From an uncultured Clostridia bacterium (lineage in GTDB: Bacteria; Bacillota; Clostridia; Peptostreptococcales; Anaerovoracaceae), in the NCBI GenBank assembly GCA_944388495.1, contig CALXIZ010000098.1, positions 1 through 64,000 of the forward strand: a stretch of 64,000 nt of DNA, read 5' to 3'. The translations under genes and the position numbers were made by a program. Within the stretch, counting starts at the first letter, position 1. The number at the start of each line of letters is the position of its first letter. A model generated the notes under the pieces. It saw only the letters and a list, made by a program, of their open reading frames with translations. It was not told the DNA's origin and did not search any database. Below are positions 12,481 to 18,692 of the stretch, piece after piece.

Positions 12481-12556
12481 TGGTGCTCGCGGGGAGACTC
12501 GAACTCCCGACGCACGGTTTAGGAAACCGACGCTCTATCCACTGAGCTACGCAAGC
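12481..12556 (-). tRNA. tRNA-Arg (anticodon CCT)
   Basis: Read on the minus strand the 76 bases fold as a standard cloverleaf. The acceptor arms GCTTGCG and CGCGAGC are fully paired (one T-G), and the CCA end is encoded at 12483-12481. The anticodon loop is TTCCTAA, giving CCT, which reads AGG arginine codons. The T arm carries GTTCGAGTC. A terminator follows immediately, so it is a single-tRNA unit. Confidence 0.95.
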
Positions 12557-13693: not shown

Positions 13694-14249
13694 CCCACCG
13701 GCTTTAGACAGTGGGTTAAGGTAGTCAAAAGTAGTGGCTCATGCTATACTTGTGTCATAGGAATAAGGTTAAAAAGGCGGTGACAGAGAATGTTAAAAGC
13801 ATATAAATACAGGATTTATCCGAATAACAAGCAAAAAATGCAGATTGCAAAAACATTCGGATGTTGCCGTTTTATTTACAATCAGACTTTAGCATATCGA
13901 AAAGAAACTTACGAGCAGGATAAAAAATCTGTCAGTAAAATAGACTGTAACAATTACTGTAATAGGACATTAAAGAAGAATTATGAATGGCTGAAGGAAG
14001 TGGATAAGTTTGCCCTGACAAATGCGATCTATAACATGGATGCTGCATATCGGAAATTTTTCAAGGAACATGCAGGTTATCCAAAATTTAAGAGGAAGCA
14101 TGACAGCCATAAATCATATACAACAAATTTTACAAATGGAATGGCAGGGACTGCCCGAATTAACGCCTGTGGAGATAATAGGTTACGAGGTCTGCGAAGC
14201 AGGAAGCATATTGGCTTTAGACAATGGGTAGTTCACAGTAACTATTAGA
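13694..14249 (+). mobile_element. Internally deleted IS200/IS605-type TnpB element
   Basis: A short element around a shrunken tnpB. At its left, CCCAC (13694-13698) and GTGGG (13711-13715) form a hairpin around CGGCTTTAGACA, a sequence seen at IS605-type ends. GGCTTTAGACAGTGGGT (13700-13716) recurs with one change at 14213-14229, close behind the end of the tnpB reading frame. No tnpA is present. Ends are therefore recognisable while the catalytic part of tnpB is gone, so it could move only with a transposase supplied elsewhere. The exact outer borders and the target site are uncertain, and the left hairpin could instead be the right end of a second, lost copy. Confidence 0.7.
13790..14248 (+). 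pseudogene. TnpB (OrfB) with the RuvC core deleted
   Basis: The 152-residue frame starts with an excellent TnpB N-terminus: MLKAYKYRIYPNNKQ, then TFGCCRFIYNQTL and AGYPKFKRKHDSHKSYTTNF. This matches the family to about residue 115. Full TnpB proteins have about 370-420 residues. The frame then continues directly into GMAGTARINACGD, which looks like the tail that follows the zinc finger at the C-terminus of many TnpBs. The wedge and RuvC domains, with their Asp-Glu-Asp catalytic residues, and the zinc finger are missing. It looks like a precise, in-frame internal deletion, not random decay. RNA-guided nuclease activity is not expected. Whether the truncated protein is made is unknown. Confidence 0.75.
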
Positions 14250-14400
14250 CACGGTAAAATTATATAAAAGGATGAAAATCCGCAAAAGGTTCATTTTGCC
14301 GGAGAAGATTCTGTCTGTTATGCGGCGGGAAAATGACCGGCTGTCACGACCGGATACCGACGGATTTTTCACTTGGAAAAAGGAAGAAGGAAAAATCTGT

Positions 14401-14608
14401 GCTGCGGGAGCCTGCAGGCTCACCGCTACTGTGATACCCCGCGAATCCGGCCCGAAGGACACAGATGAGCGGATGGTATCACGTATGCGACGACCTCTTA
14501 GCGATCCGCAAGTCTGAAGAACAGAGGAAACAGACGCAGCGGGAGCTTAGAGGCTCACCGCTACTGTGATACCCCGCGAATCCGGCCCGAGGGATACAGA
14601 TGAGCGGG
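14401..14608 (+). repeat. Structured intergenic repeat, copy A (two units, 135-bp period)
   Basis: Two similar units lie 135 bases apart: 14401-14472 and 14536-14607. Each holds GGCTCACCGCTACTGTGATA followed by CCCCGCGAATCC and ends CAGATGAGCGG. Between them GGTATCAC (14475-14482) is complementary to GTGATACC in both the first unit (14431-14438) and the second (14566-14573), so two alternative hairpins are possible. A second stem can form between CCTCTTAGC and GCTTAGAGG with one mismatch. The same composite occurs inverted at 18512-18692. No coding potential is apparent. It lies right before the sensory hydrogenase operon. Confidence 0.85.
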
Positions 14609-14641
14609 AATGTGCCCCGTGCAGGGGCGGAGGAGAAGGAT

Positions 14642-14887
14642 ATGAAGACGGTTACAGTGTGTGTAGGAAGCGCCTGTCATATGAAAGGATCGCATCATGT
14701 GATCGATGAGCTCGACGAACTGATCAGGCGCTATGGTCTGGAAGATGATGTGGAGCTGAAAGCTTCTTTCTGCATGGATCAGTGTACAGGCAATATCGGA
14801 GCAAGAGTCGACGACAGGCAGATTTTCGATCTGACAAAGGATAATGTGGAAGAAGTGTTTCGGCGTGAAATTCTCGGAAACGGCTGA
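14642..14887 (+). CDS. Thioredoxin-fold [2Fe-2S] ferredoxin (NuoE/HoxE-like)
   Basis: An 81-residue protein, MKTVTVCVGSACHMKGS at the start and SFCMDQC near residue 44. Cysteines 7, 12, 44 and 48 match the four-Cys [2Fe-2S] site of the thioredoxin-like ferredoxin family also found in NuoE and in hydrogenase subunits. It is about half the size of NuoE and contains only this domain. GGAGGAGAAGG just upstream supports the ATG at 14642. It is the first gene of a three-gene unit with the PAS hydrogenase and the SpoIIE-type phosphatase, so it probably passes electrons to or from the hydrogenase-like protein; that role is inferred from context. Confidence 0.87.
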   Translation: MKTVTVCVGSACHMKGSHHVIDELDELIRRYGLEDDVELKASFCMDQCTGNIGARVDDRQIFDLTKDNVEEVFRREILGNG

Positions 14888-14995
14888 AATATACGGAACG
14901 CCGGACAAAGAATACAGAAAAAGAGCGGACGGGCAGCTGCGGGGCGGAAAAAGAACAAGAACTTCGGGAGACAGACTGTCCGGGAGGAGTAGAGG

Positions 14996-16765
14996 ATGAA
15001 TTCAGAAAATAAGAGAAGTGCGATGATCATGCGGCTGAAAGGGGCGAACTGCAAAAATTGCTACAAATGTGTCCGCGCCTGTCCGGTCAAGGCTATTTCG
15101 ATTCTGTCGGAAAAAGCAAAAATCGATGAGAAACGCTGCATTTACTGCGGACAGTGTTATCTAGTCTGTCCGCAGGACGCGAGAGATCTGCTGAGTGAAC
15201 TCGACCGGGTAAAAGCTATGATCGCAAACGGAGAAAAAGTATATATATCCATCTCATCGACATTCGGTGAATATTTCATGAATGCAAATCTCTGGCAGGT
15301 GGCGGCGGCGCTGAAAAAGCTCGGAGTGACCAGAGTGGAGGAGACGGCGATCGGAGCCATACGCGTCATGGAAGAATACGAAAAGCTGGCGGATGAGGGA
15401 GATATGAAGAATATTTTCACAAGCTTCTGCCCGTCTTCCAACTTCCTGATACAGAAATATTATCCGGAGCTGATACGTTATCTCGCTCCGGTGGATACAC
15501 CGATGGAGGCTCATGCGAAGATGATGCGCAAAGCCTACGGAGAGGATATCCGCGTCGTCACGGTGGGACCGTGTATTTCCTGTCATAAGCTGGCTGCCGT
15601 CACACAGAACGGGAGGCTGATCGATGCCTATCTCAACTTTGAGGAACTGGAACACTGGATGGAGAGCGAAGGCGTAAGAGTGACGCGGGAAGAGGACCGC
15701 GATACTGTGATGGTATCAAATTACCGTGCGCGGTATTTTGATGAAGCCGGAGGTGTGTTCCGTGCGCTGAAAGCAGACATCAAATATCATTATATGCTCT
15801 GGAATATCGACGGAGCGGGCCGTATCAAGAGTACATTCAAGGATCTCAACGATTCCATCCGCGGATATTTCATGGAGCTGGTAGGCTGTCAGAACAGCTG
15901 TCTTGGCGGACCGATCATGCGTCTGGCGGGAAAGGACACCTTCCCGGGCAAAGACCACTGGCTTTTTACCGTGAAGGATGATAACGGAGGCGGCGACCCG
16001 AATCCGTCCGAATCGGCGGAGGTTGACATCCGGAAAAAGTATATCAGCATGGATTTTTATGAACCGATGCCGACGGAAGAAGAACTGCGCGATCTTCTGG
16101 CGCTCGTCGGCAAAACGAAGAAGGAACATATGCTGGACTGCAGCGGCTGCGGATATCCGAGCTGCCGTGACAAGGCGATCGCTGTTTACCGCGGGATGGC
16201 AGATCCGTTTATGTGTATTCCTTATTCGAGAGACAAGGCAGAGGCGGAATCGAACCACCTGTTTGAATTCATGCCGAACGGTATCGTACTGACGGACAAG
16301 GAGATGAAAATCGCCGATGTCAATCCGAAAGCGCTGGAGATTCTGGGAGGAGAAAAAGAAGATTACCTGGACAAAGATGTCAGAGATATTATGCTTACTC
16401 AGTTTATCGACGACGCCCGAATGAAGGAACTCGATGTCATAAATGACGTGGTGGAGTGCGATAAACTGGATAAAGTGCTTGCCGTAACCTTCTTCCGCAT
16501 CACGAGACATCATCTCTATACGCTGGTCATCAATGATATGACGGAAGAGGCGGAAAAACGCCGCAAGGAAAGTCAGATGAGACAGGAGACGATCGACGTC
16601 GCTCAGGAAGTCGTTCAGAAACAGATGAGAATCGCACAGGAAATCGCCAGCCTGCTGGGCGAGACGACAGCGGAGACGAAGCTGGCGGTAAACCGGATGA
16701 AATCCATGCTCGTGACAGACGAAGAGGAATGGTACGAAGACGGGTGGTACAGCAATGAAAAGTAA
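14996..16765 (+). CDS. Putative sensory [FeFe]-hydrogenase with C-terminal PAS domain (HydS/HfsB-like)
   Basis: A 589-residue protein. Two [4Fe-4S] ferredoxin clusters come first (Cys 19, 22, 25, 29 and 48, 51, 54, 58), followed by an H-cluster domain. A four-Cys Fe-S module (Cys 382, 385, 390, 407; CSGCGYPSC) precedes a PAS domain (about 420-520) and a helical tail. The H-cluster motifs are divergent. The first loop is TSFCP where catalytic enzymes have TSCCP, so the proton-relay Cys is Phe144 and the ligand Cys145 is kept. The second is GPCISCHK (Cys193, with Cys196 where a Lys is usual) and the third GCQNSC (Cys298, Cys302). The PAS domain and this divergence fit group C hydrogenases, thought to sense H2 or redox state rather than produce H2. 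The downstream phosphatase overlaps by 11 bases. Confidence 0.88.
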   Translation: MNSENKRSAMIMRLKGANCKNCYKCVRACPVKAISILSEKAKIDEKRCIYCGQCYLVCPQDARDLLSELDRVKAMIANGEKVYISISSTFGEYFMNANLWQVAAALKKLGVTRVEETAIGAIRVMEEYEKLADEGDMKNIFTSFCPSSNFLIQKYYPELIRYLAPVDTPMEAHAKMMRKAYGEDIRVVTVGPCISCHKLAAVTQNGRLIDAYLNFEELEHWMESEGVRVTREEDRDTVMVSNYRARYFDEAGGVFRALKADIKYHYMLWNIDGAGRIKSTFKDLNDSIRGYFMELVGCQNSCLGGPIMRLAGKDTFPGKDHWLFTVKDDNGGGDPNPSESAEVDIRKKYISMDFYEPMPTEEELRDLLALVGKTKKEHMLDCSGCGYPSCRDKAIAVYRGMADPFMCIPYSRDKAEAESNHLFEFMPNGIVLTDKEMKIADVNPKALEILGGEKEDYLDKDVRDIMLTQFIDDARMKELDVINDVVECDKLDKVLAVTFFRITRHHLYTLVINDMTEEAEKRRKESQMRQETIDVAQEVVQKQMRIAQEIASLLGETTAETKLAVNRMKSMLVTDEEEWYEDGWYSNEK

Positions 16766-17945
16766 CAGTTTTTATGTTGACATCTACAGTCAGAGCCTTC
16801 TGAAAAAAGGAGAGGAACTCTGCGGCGATATGGTCAACGTCATACGCCGGCCGGATGAAACGATTCTCGTGCTGGCGGACGGTATGGGCAGCGGAGTCAA
16901 GGCGAATATTCTGGCCACGCTTACCAGCAAGATCATCTCCACACTCATGATAGGAAACGCGGGGATCGACGAATGTGTCGAGACGATTTCGGAGACGCTT
17001 CCTGTCTGCCGGGAGCGGGGAATCGCCTATTCAACTTTTACCATCGTCAGAGTAAAAAATGACGGCGAGGTCTATACGGCAGAATTTGACGGACCGGAGT
17101 TTGTCATGCTGCGCAACGGCGTCCTGGATGAGCCTGAAAAAAAGATGCGCGTTATCAGCGGCAAGGAAGTCTGGGAGTCTCATTTTTATGCCGAGCCGGA
17201 AGACATGATCGTCTCTTTTTCCGACGGCGTCATTCATGCCGGAATCGGACGCCTGATCAATCTGGGATGGAAGCGTGTCAATGTCATGGAGTTTATCCAG
17301 CGAAATTACCATATGAAAATGTCTGCGCGGACGATGACGAGAGATCTGCTGGAGGTGTGCAATCATCTGTACGAAGGGGAGCCCGGAGACGATACGACGG
17401 TGGCGACAGTGCGTATCATGCCGAGGACGACGACGAGAGTCATGGTGGGACCGGCATCCAGCGCCGAGATGGATCACGAACAGGTGCGCACGCTGATGTC
17501 GGCTTCGGGGCGCAAAATCGTCTGCGGCGGGACGACGTCGCAGATCGTAGCCCGGGAGCTGGGAAAAAAGATCGACGTCGATCTGAAATATTACGATGCG
17601 GAGATTCCGCCGATCGCTTATATTGAAGGAGTGGATCTGGTTACAGAGGGAATCCTGACGCTTTCGGCGGCAGAAAAGCTGATGGAAGCCTGCCGCAGAG
17701 AGTACGGCAGCAATGTGAAATCAGAGGAACCGGTCGATCTGGAGAAAAAGGACGGAGCGACGAAACTGGTGAAAATGCTGGTGCAGGACTGCACCGATAT
17801 CGTCTTCATGATGGGACAGGCGGACAATCCGGCTCATCAGAAGATCGATGCGCCGATCAACCTCAGCATAAAGGTGAGAATCGTACAGCATATGGCAGAA
17901 CTTCTGGACGAAATGGGGAAAAAATCCAGAATAGAATATTACTGA
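16755..17945 (+). CDS. SpoIIE-family (PP2C-type) serine phosphatase of the hydrogenase operon
   Basis: A 396-residue protein whose first ~225 residues form a SpoIIE/PP2C domain: CGDMVN (Asp25), LADGMGSG (Asp42), SFSDGVIHAG and GEPGDDTTVATV supply the metal-binding aspartates. The remaining ~170 residues (from VGPASSAEMDHEQ) are conserved-looking but unrecognised; they contain CGGTTSQIVARELGKKI and could bind a partner. Such phosphatases act on anti-sigma-factor antagonists or other phosphoproteins. It overlaps the hydrogenase gene by 11 bases, implying translational coupling and an output module: hydrogenase senses, phosphatase relays. No kinase or STAS partner is adjacent, so the target is unknown. 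Confidence 0.87.
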   Translation: MKSNSFYVDIYSQSLLKKGEELCGDMVNVIRRPDETILVLADGMGSGVKANILATLTSKIISTLMIGNAGIDECVETISETLPVCRERGIAYSTFTIVRVKNDGEVYTAEFDGPEFVMLRNGVLDEPEKKMRVISGKEVWESHFYAEPEDMIVSFSDGVIHAGIGRLINLGWKRVNVMEFIQRNYHMKMSARTMTRDLLEVCNHLYEGEPGDDTTVATVRIMPRTTTRVMVGPASSAEMDHEQVRTLMSASGRKIVCGGTTSQIVARELGKKIDVDLKYYDAEIPPIAYIEGVDLVTEGILTLSAAEKLMEACRREYGSNVKSEEPVDLEKKDGATKLVKMLVQDCTDIVFMMGQADNPAHQKIDAPINLSIKVRIVQHMAELLDEMGKKSRIEYY

Positions 17946-18127
17946 AATGCAATATTATGAAAAAGGGGCAAGATGAGATCCGACCTTACAGGGATAACTG
18001 AAAACGGCAGAGACAGGCAGGTGCTGCTGCGGCGGCACCTGTCTCCGGTTTGTGCGCCCGCCGGCAATCCCGTCAGTATCTGCCCGCATTCTCTCTGTCA
18101 ATCGTCCTCCCGCTGTACCCCGGCTGC

Positions 18128-18376
18128 TTATCGGCCGAACAGCCCTTTTTTCTCCCAGGGTTCTTTCCGGATTTCTCCTGCGTCATAGCCGGTGGCGGAA
18201 ATAGCCGAGCACAGAGCCTCCTCGTCCAGCTCCGTCTCTGCGATCACTGTAGTCTCCTTTTTTCTTCGGGAGGAGGTGACCTTTCTGACCGGAAAAGCCC
18301 TGCGCACCGCATCGTTCACATGGCTTTCGCACATGCCGCACATCATGCCGTCCACCCGGATCGTGTACTTCCACAT
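18128..18376 (-). CDS. Heavy-metal-associated (HMA) domain protein, CopZ-like
   Basis: An 82-residue single HMA domain: MWKYTIRVDGMMCGMCESHV carries the metal-binding MxCxxC motif (Cys13, Cys16), and TAETELDEEALCSAI-like sequence matches the second half of the ferredoxin-like fold. Such proteins shuttle Cu(I) or other soft metals to P-type ATPases or repressors. The start at 18376 is chosen because AGGAGGAACAGATA precedes it; an upstream ATG at 18427 is not supported. The C-terminus (EPWEKKGLFGR) is basic. No copA or csoR is adjacent. The Met-Cys-Gly-Met-Cys core is slightly unusual compared with the common MTCxxC. A perfect inverted repeat about 55 bases upstream is a likely operator. Confidence 0.85.
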   Translation of the reverse strand: MWKYTIRVDGMMCGMCESHVNDAVRRAFPVRKVTSSRRKKETTVIAETELDEEALCSAISATGYDAGEIRKEPWEKKGLFGR

Positions 18377-18428
18377 TATCTGTTCCTCCTGACATTTAAA
18401 ATGAGGTGATGTTATAAGTTTGTACATG

Positions 18429-18444
18429 GTTAGTAATAACTAAC
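18429..18444. promoter_or_regulatory. Perfect inverted repeat, candidate operator of the HMA gene
   Basis: GTTAGT-AATA-ACTAAC is a perfect 6-bp inverted repeat. It lies about 53 bases upstream of the HMA-domain start codon in a short AT-rich region, where a metal-responsive repressor such as a DtxR/MntR-type protein could bind. The regulator class is a guess from the TTAG...CTAA shape. Confidence 0.5.
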
Positions 18445-18511
18445 TTTAAAAATTATAGCGTATCCTGCGTTGACTGTCAAGGAACGAAACGATACAGGGC
18501 GGGAAATCCAT

Positions 18512-18692
18512 TCGCTCATCTGCGTCCTTCGGACTGGATTCGCGGGGTATCACAGTAGCGGTGAGCCTCTAAGCTCCCGCTGCGTCTGTTTTATTTGTTC
18601 TTACGACTTGCGGTTCGCTAAGAGGTCGTCGCATACGTGATACCGTCCGCTCATCTGCGTCCTTCGGACTGGATTCGCGGGGTATCACAGTA
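18512..18692 (-). repeat. Structured intergenic repeat, copy B (inverted relative to copy A)
   Basis: Reading the minus strand from 18692, the two-unit composite of copy A is reproduced with the same 135-bp period and roughly 15 base differences over about 180 bases by eye. GTGATACC (18688-18681), GGTATCAC (18644-18637) and GTGATACC (18553-18546) are all kept, so the same alternative hairpins can form. Within copy B both units read CCAGTCCG where both units of copy A read CCGGCCCG, so units resemble their neighbour more than their counterpart. The first unit starts abruptly at TACTGTG after a T-run. Copy B lies between the HMA gene and the Lrp gene. Confidence 0.85.

Follow-up and report, generated by a model that had tools for sequence, protein, structure and literature searches.

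In a 64,000-nucleotide (nt) stretch of DNA from an uncultured Clostridia bacterium of the family Anaerovoracaceae (GenBank assembly GCA_944388495.1, contig CALXIZ010000098.1, positions 1 to 64,000; hereafter the window), two inverted copies of a repeat, copy A and copy B, lie on either side of a sensory hydrogenase operon, which raises the question of what the repeat is and whether its placement has any meaning. Both probably belong, as separate copies, to a mobile DNA element that is non-autonomous, palindromic and interspersed; its hairpins would act in single-stranded DNA (ssDNA), and an enzyme would act on them in trans. We favor this reading because copies are dispersed, their stems carry compensatory changes, empty sites exist, the left end falls in T and tandem arrays keep a fixed left phase. 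The repeat family is previously undescribed and is characterized by its dispersal, anatomy, covarying stems, empty sites and a hairpin tip common to two bacterial classes.

Copy A occupies positions 14401-14608 on the plus strand and copy B positions 18508-18692 on the minus strand, and they are 92% complementary (inverted) across 180 nt. Both have an internal repeat with a spacing of exactly 135 nt, its two stretches being 92% identical over 72 nt in copy A and 96% identical over 50 nt in copy B. An initial annotation, made from the sequence alone, had described two inverted copies with two units 135 bases apart at ~92% identity; sequence comparison bears this out but moves the start of copy B to ~18508. 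The 135-nt period corresponds to one unit, in which hairpin A (59 nt) precedes hairpin B (73 nt); a second hairpin A (A′) comes next and is truncated in copy A as well as in copy B. Based on the internal repeat and on reading of the sequence, copy A begins with a remnant of the 3′ half of hairpin B (GCTGCGGGAGCCTGCAGGCTCACCGC; 14401-14426, plus), which lies left of the first full unit and resembles 14536-14561. Next come hairpin A (14427-14485, plus; TACTGTGATACC...GGTATCACGTA), whose inner stems CCGC/GCGG and ATC/GAT with tandem G-A are supported by alignment, consensus fold and pair counts, and hairpin B (14488-14560, plus; CGACGACCTCTTAGCGA...GAGCTTAGAGGCTCACCG), supported by alignment, consensus fold and a genome-wide search for its conserved tip hairpin. 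A′ (14562-14607, plus), delimited by the internal repeat and by copy comparison, ends before its 3′ arm. In copy B, hairpin A (18634-18692, minus; internal repeat, BLAST and alignment) has its left end within a T-run, the minus strand reading ...GATTTTT and then TACTGTG; hairpin B (18559-18631, minus; BLAST and alignment) and A′ (18508-18557, minus; internal repeat and copy comparison) follow, the latter truncated at GATGAGCG.

Across the family, the unit runs in the order TAC, hairpin A, hairpin B, CACCG, with hairpin A spanning TAC…GTA and hairpin B spanning CTTAGCGA…GAGCTTAG. Hairpin A consists of an outer stem (for example, TGTGATACC/GGTATCAC), then CCGC/GCGG, tandem G-A, ATC/GAT and a GNA-type triloop stem, while hairpin B is built from CTTAGC/GCTTAG with a T-T mismatch, tandem G-A and inner stems. 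The general layout is (A-B)n-A: a further A is often present and frequently truncated, many copies running straight into a second A that is complete or cut at varied points, and some into a partial second B. By eye, A and A′ are near-identical within several arrays, while separate arrays differ from each other. The initial annotation had regarded both the 135-nt period and the stem pairing as conserved, and had expected further copies to keep them. Covarying A and B pairing is indeed retained in the extra copies, whereas the 135-nt spacing is particular to copies A and B; most related units measure 119-128 nt, genome G009 has (A-B) arrays with a period of 121 nt, and genome G692 carries an array of ~3 units with a period of ~89 nt, the last unit truncated. 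Most of the 121-nt-array units in G009 (loci L316-L322) have an extended -10-like box, TGGTACAATG, directly 5′ of hairpin A, and several of these arrays lie just upstream of genes.

Covariation supports these stems. Both sides were altered in 16 of 42 pairs (47 cells), none of 500 shuffles reached the observed pairing or covariation, and the paired fraction dropped from 97% to 28-48% when sliding partners were used as a control. Folded as DNA, the window units and the copy at locus L006 beat every shuffle; with RNA folding, only L026 among the sequences tested was equalled, by 1 of 200 shuffles. The proposed pairings GTGATACC/GGTATCAC and CCTCTTAGC/GCTTAGAGG are both real. The first had also been read as giving two mutually exclusive hairpins, and the alternative between GGTATCAC and the downstream GTGATACC is available, the minimum-energy fold of the whole of copy A using this long-range pairing; however, it cannot form in copies that lack a second A. 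A structure kept at the RNA level should show an excess of G-U over A-C on the sense strand. In the alignment (A1), 600 cells were Watson-Crick, 11 A-C and 6 G-T, and the genome-wide set of hairpin B tips shows a similar A-C/G-U balance by eye. GNA triloops are very stable in DNA. Because A-C is not rarer than G-U, and given this triloop stability, the pairing looks DNA-level.

The search of the host genome and relatives that the initial annotation had proposed yielded many further copies with covarying A and B stems. BLAST of copy A against its own genome (2.06 Mb, 152 contigs, 93% complete) returned nine matches (E from 3e-105 to 2e-14), and further matches were found in a genus-mate, Candidatus Alangreenwoodia gallinarii (Clostridia; 87% complete), while the 59 other relatives searched contained none at the DNA level. 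A covariance model built from 15 units gave 21 matches in the host genome and 31 in the genus-mate at E ≤0.1, and 32 of 297 genomes in a family sample had a match at E ≤0.001, most of them weak. Completeness of G009 was 97%. Copies within one genome are mostly 75-80% identical. Several contigs end at or within ~100 nt of a copy in both species (host C30, C35 and C69; genus-mate C39, C106, C112, C135 and C153), which suggests that metagenome assembly is interrupted by the repeats and that the copy numbers are lower bounds. Inside hairpin A, at one shared point, no fewer than five loci carry a further two-hairpin element (ATGAAGCCCTAACCCG...GGTAGGTCTTACTCAAGAAATTCC...TTTTACTGA) as a nested insertion; such nesting is listed for L003, L028, L112, L102, L097 and L294 (genus-mate C123).

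Copies insert in T-rich DNA with a target duplication of at most 1 base pair (bp). The left end is fixed at TAC, with T at position -1 in 29 of 32 genus copies, and the right end is CACCG, with right truncation that varies between copies. The left phase is not always fixed: copy A and L111 begin inside a B remnant. In G692, G577 and G552, by eye, copies mostly start in the T-run right behind a terminator-like hairpin. Within the genus such a hairpin occurs at 5 of 32 copies, compared with 2.8% of random positions and 20% of random T-rich positions; terminator targeting is therefore not demonstrated there. Upstream -10 boxes (6 of 32 genus copies versus 4-6%) are suggestive only. Copies lie in both orientations relative to neighboring genes, including on the antisense strand within Rpn coding regions.

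The Rpn (PDDEXK_2) nuclease genes provide a comparison of filled and empty sites. Four of them, three in the host (L006, L007 and L008, on contigs C62, C35 and C30) and one in the genus-mate (L016, on C139), carry a 127-nt unit at one shared codon, where it introduces a stop and a frame shift. A paralogue on genus-mate contig C159 is uninterrupted (337 amino acids), with a junction ambiguity of only 1 nt, and its empty site reads ACTTCT, without the TAC found after T where a unit is present. The N-terminal halves that were compared have a ratio of non-synonymous to synonymous substitution rates (dN/dS) of 0.05-0.14 at dS 0.7-1.7. Because Rpn genes are known to contain a gene within the gene, from which a C-terminal antitoxin is translated separately (PMC10327210), both halves of the split genes may still be expressed. 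An intron or programmed bypass would fit conserved halves, but two host Rpn copies show only 2 differences in the last 60 nt before the insert, versus 3-7 per 30 nt further off, so that spread of the insert among paralogues by conversion would be the simpler explanation. In L008 the frame continues past the unit and, after a further 27 nt of Rpn sequence, enters an unrelated open reading frame, giving a chimeric Rpn copy; L006 has a different deletion that begins just behind the same stretch. Elsewhere, L005 and L024 share a position with different subfamilies, their upstream flanks being 89% identical.

The hydrogenase operon itself was compared with that of the genus-mate. Behind copy A lie a gene for a thioredoxin-like [2Fe-2S] ferredoxin-like protein (14642-14887, plus; PF01257 at 24.6 bits, just under the cut-off of 24.8), a gene for a protein with Fe-hydrogenase C-terminal, ferredoxin and PAS domains, of the sensory hydrogenase type (14996-16765, plus; domain search), and a SpoIIE-type phosphatase gene (16755-17945, plus; domain search). 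Copy A is in the operon leader, between a promoter-like TTCACA-17-TAAAAT (14232-14260, plus; comparison with the genus-mate) and the ribosome-binding site. The genes flanking the corresponding leader in the genus-mate are ~84% identical, yet that leader has no element and is short, with TTGAAA-17-TAAAAT directly before the ribosome-binding site; in the window, ~360 bp including copy A have been added between the retained promoter and the ribosome-binding site. Positions 13790-14245 contain an internally deleted insertion sequence (IS) 605-type TnpB gene; its right end (...TTTAGACAATGGGTAGTTCAC) is IS-like, abuts the operon promoter and seems to supply the -35 box TTCACA. Copy B is intergenic, between a minus-strand heavy-metal-domain gene, which has a perfect sigma-70 promoter (18480-18452, minus), and a plus-strand Lrp gene (18892). 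The corresponding point in the genus-mate carries, in matching orientation, an A hairpin with another element nested in it, followed by a different B subfamily.

Because the genus-mate has an element at the site of copy B and none at that of copy A, the two copies, judged from this comparison, probably arrived separately. Copy A would have landed in the hydrogenase leader after the split from the genus-mate, or would have been lost in the genus-mate; copy B lies at a site that carries an element in both species. If the operon is affected at all, this would be a by-product of an insertion in its leader. The initial annotation had emphasized that the pair brackets the operon, but this is probably a coincidence with no demonstrated meaning.

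Clostridia and Negativicutes share a conserved hairpin B tip that includes a T-T mismatch and tandem G-A pairs. Scanning 84,980 species genomes with the tip pattern (CTTAGCGATNNGCRAGNC...GAGCTTAG) identified at least 117 further stretches and, among the matches listed, all records were from Bacillota (Clostridia and Negativicutes, including Anaerovibrio slackiae). The pattern specifies 22-23 bases, for which we estimate one chance match or fewer. Of the positions left free by the pattern, checked in 105 distinct sequences, the two inner ones are paired in 100% and 98% and use several pair types; the outer three are paired in 78-91%, compared with 32-60% in shuffles. In a phylum sample the tip was found in 4 of 398 genomes, with no control matches, and its distribution is therefore patchy. 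In the wider set of carriers the tip often sits on longer, different palindromes. At six Negativicutes loci (L145, L158, L172, L184, L187 and L204) the CTTAG palindrome is part of a longer repeat that ends in inverted repeats similar to TTTCAGGCTTGCTCGTAG and seems to be a separate miniature inverted-repeat transposable element (MITE). One viral contig matches the B-core pattern; plasmid and phage collections gave no match to the repeat. Rfam 15 contains no family matching the repeat or the tip at the gathering threshold, nor a sensible sub-threshold match, in keeping with the initial annotation, which recognized no tRNA or riboswitch class; at gathering score, the sole Rfam match in the whole window is a tRNA (12484-12556). 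In the open-access papers searched, the tested core sequences occur only in two unrelated papers.

How, then, should the repeat be explained? A local inverted duplication around the operon, of no wider significance, would account for two inverted 92% copies flanking it, but it is largely refuted and hardly credible given the many copies across genome and genus and the probably separate arrivals. A duplicated structured RNA, either a 5′-leader regulator or a small RNA in which the A and A′ arms switch between exclusive folds to control the downstream gene, would fit the position of copy A between promoter and ribosome-binding site, the availability of both folds and the TGGTACAATG box in G009. 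We nevertheless consider it improbable, as the A′ arm required for a switch is lost or truncated in many copies (the four Rpn copies, for example, cannot form the GGTATCAC/GTGATACC alternative), the genus-mate operon dispenses with copy A, copies face either way, even antisense within Rpn, and there is neither an Rfam match nor a deficit of A-C. On the same grounds of pair bias, orientation and Rfam, the annotation's suggestion of an RNA-active element is not supported. Its other suggestion, a mobile element, is supported because copies are dispersed, left ends are precise, and both empty sites and nested insertions occur. Rather less probable still is a product of reverse transcription, in which a small, perhaps circular hairpin RNA is copied into nicked T-tracts. 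The mostly fixed left phase in T-runs, the tandem (A-B)n-A layout with varied right truncation and the insertion right behind terminator-like hairpins, as for group IIC introns, agree with it, but the A-C/G-U symmetry shows no sign of an RNA stage, slippage explains the arrays too, and the left phase of copy A and L111 departs from the rule.

The strongest competitor, although we think it unlikely to be correct, is a repetitive extragenic palindrome (REP)/REPIN or IS200/IS605-derived MITE proper, moved by a Y1 (HUH) transposase that has since been lost from these genomes. Imperfect mismatched hairpins, duplication of ≤1 bp, mostly extragenic location and tandem clusters plus an extra hairpin are shared with REPINs (PMC3116915), and CGTC-type REPs likewise lack a dedicated transposase (PMC3733652). 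The expected GTAG or CGTC tetranucleotide, however, is not conserved at the hairpin foot in the alignment or flank listings, and Y1 loci of other carriers have unrelated ends. Ten such loci, from Anaerovibrio and other carriers, lack the hairpins, so that IS200/IS605 ends were rejected as a direct source. None of the tests made identified the repeat as a known IS-derived MITE, an identification that would have counted against the proposal of the initial annotation.

Several observations also weigh against a mobile element served in trans. No mobilizing enzyme was found among the Y1 transposase, TnpB and Rpn candidates in the carriers tested. Y1_Tnp (PF01797) is absent from the host, the genus-mate, G009 and about half of the carriers sampled, and the four Y1 loci that were read have an ordinary IS200/IS605 look with unrelated ends. 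TnpB (PF12323) was rejected as a general partner, its only match in the host being the remnant at 13790-14245, with none in the genus-mate, G009, G143, G211, G552, G577 or G692. Rpn (PF12784) is not supported as a mobilizer, being present in some carriers, absent in others and present in genomes without matches. As copies within a genome are mostly 75-80% alike, recent movement is not apparent beyond the Rpn set and the window pair; positions shared by species with different subfamilies (copy B; L005/L024) can also mean conversion between old copies instead of new insertion; and variable right ends are not predicted by an IS200/IS605-type mechanism.

Under the mobile-element reading, which we still prefer, the hairpins would form in ssDNA, on the lagging-strand template, at replication forks or in open transcription bubbles at T-rich tracts, and the folded hairpins would be recognized by the trans-acting enzyme, as REPINs and IS200/IS605 ends are. 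Tandem units would arise during insertion or through later slippage. If so, palindromic mobile repeats with one conserved tip hairpin occur in two classes of anaerobic gut bacteria and would make it possible to test directly what enzyme moves such repeats in the absence of a Y1 transposase, a question also posed by CGTC-type REPs. Expression could be altered, and rearrangements could start, at copies that lie in leaders, behind terminators or within Rpn genes. A bolder and rather improbable extension is a new repeat class of Clostridia and Negativicutes, without a known small-palindrome transposase, that copies itself into T-tracts by primed synthesis on a circular hairpin template of RNA or ssDNA.

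Among known systems, group IIC introns insert right behind terminator-like hairpins. The left ends in G692, G577 and G552 resemble them in this respect, but the element is far too short and Rfam scans of the loci examined gave no ribozyme match, reverse transcriptase not having been searched for. MITEs of DDE transposons (including RUP and Correia/NEMIS) are similarly small, non-autonomous, palindromic and intergenic, whereas the unit here has no terminal inverted repeats, ending in TAC and CACCG, and no duplication of ≥2 bp, with ≤1 nt duplicated at the Rpn site. IS200/IS605-derived miniature elements of the PATE type share two subterminal imperfect hairpins, asymmetric ends and a target duplication of ≤1 bp; however, the left-border TTAC is missing from the empty Rpn site (ACTTCT), where a fixed tetranucleotide would be expected, and no tnpA/tnpB-bearing element with such ends was found. 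The repeat is best placed as a variant of small palindromic mobile DNA (REPIN/MITE-like), for which REPINs and CGTC-type REPs are nearest in behavior, while tags and transposase fail to match. Like REPINs and bacterial interspersed mosaic elements, which are served by the IS200/IS605-related REP-associated tyrosine transposase (RAYT), it comprises dozens of short, mostly extragenic imperfect palindromes per genome, with units and solo remnants, no long target duplication and hairpins thought to act as ssDNA. It differs in lacking a RAYT/Y1 gene (host, genus-mate and G009) and a GTAG tag, in its units of ~90-135 nt with two unlike hairpins in direct rather than inverted order, and in its conserved CTTAG tip, which combines a T-T mismatch with tandem G-A. 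With CGTC-tagged REPs it shares the lack of a dedicated transposase, and the Rpn insertions have a parallel in REPs reported within genes, those in recB of Xanthomonas lying at roughly one shared site (PMC3733652), but the repeat described here is longer, two-part and without a conserved CGTC foot.

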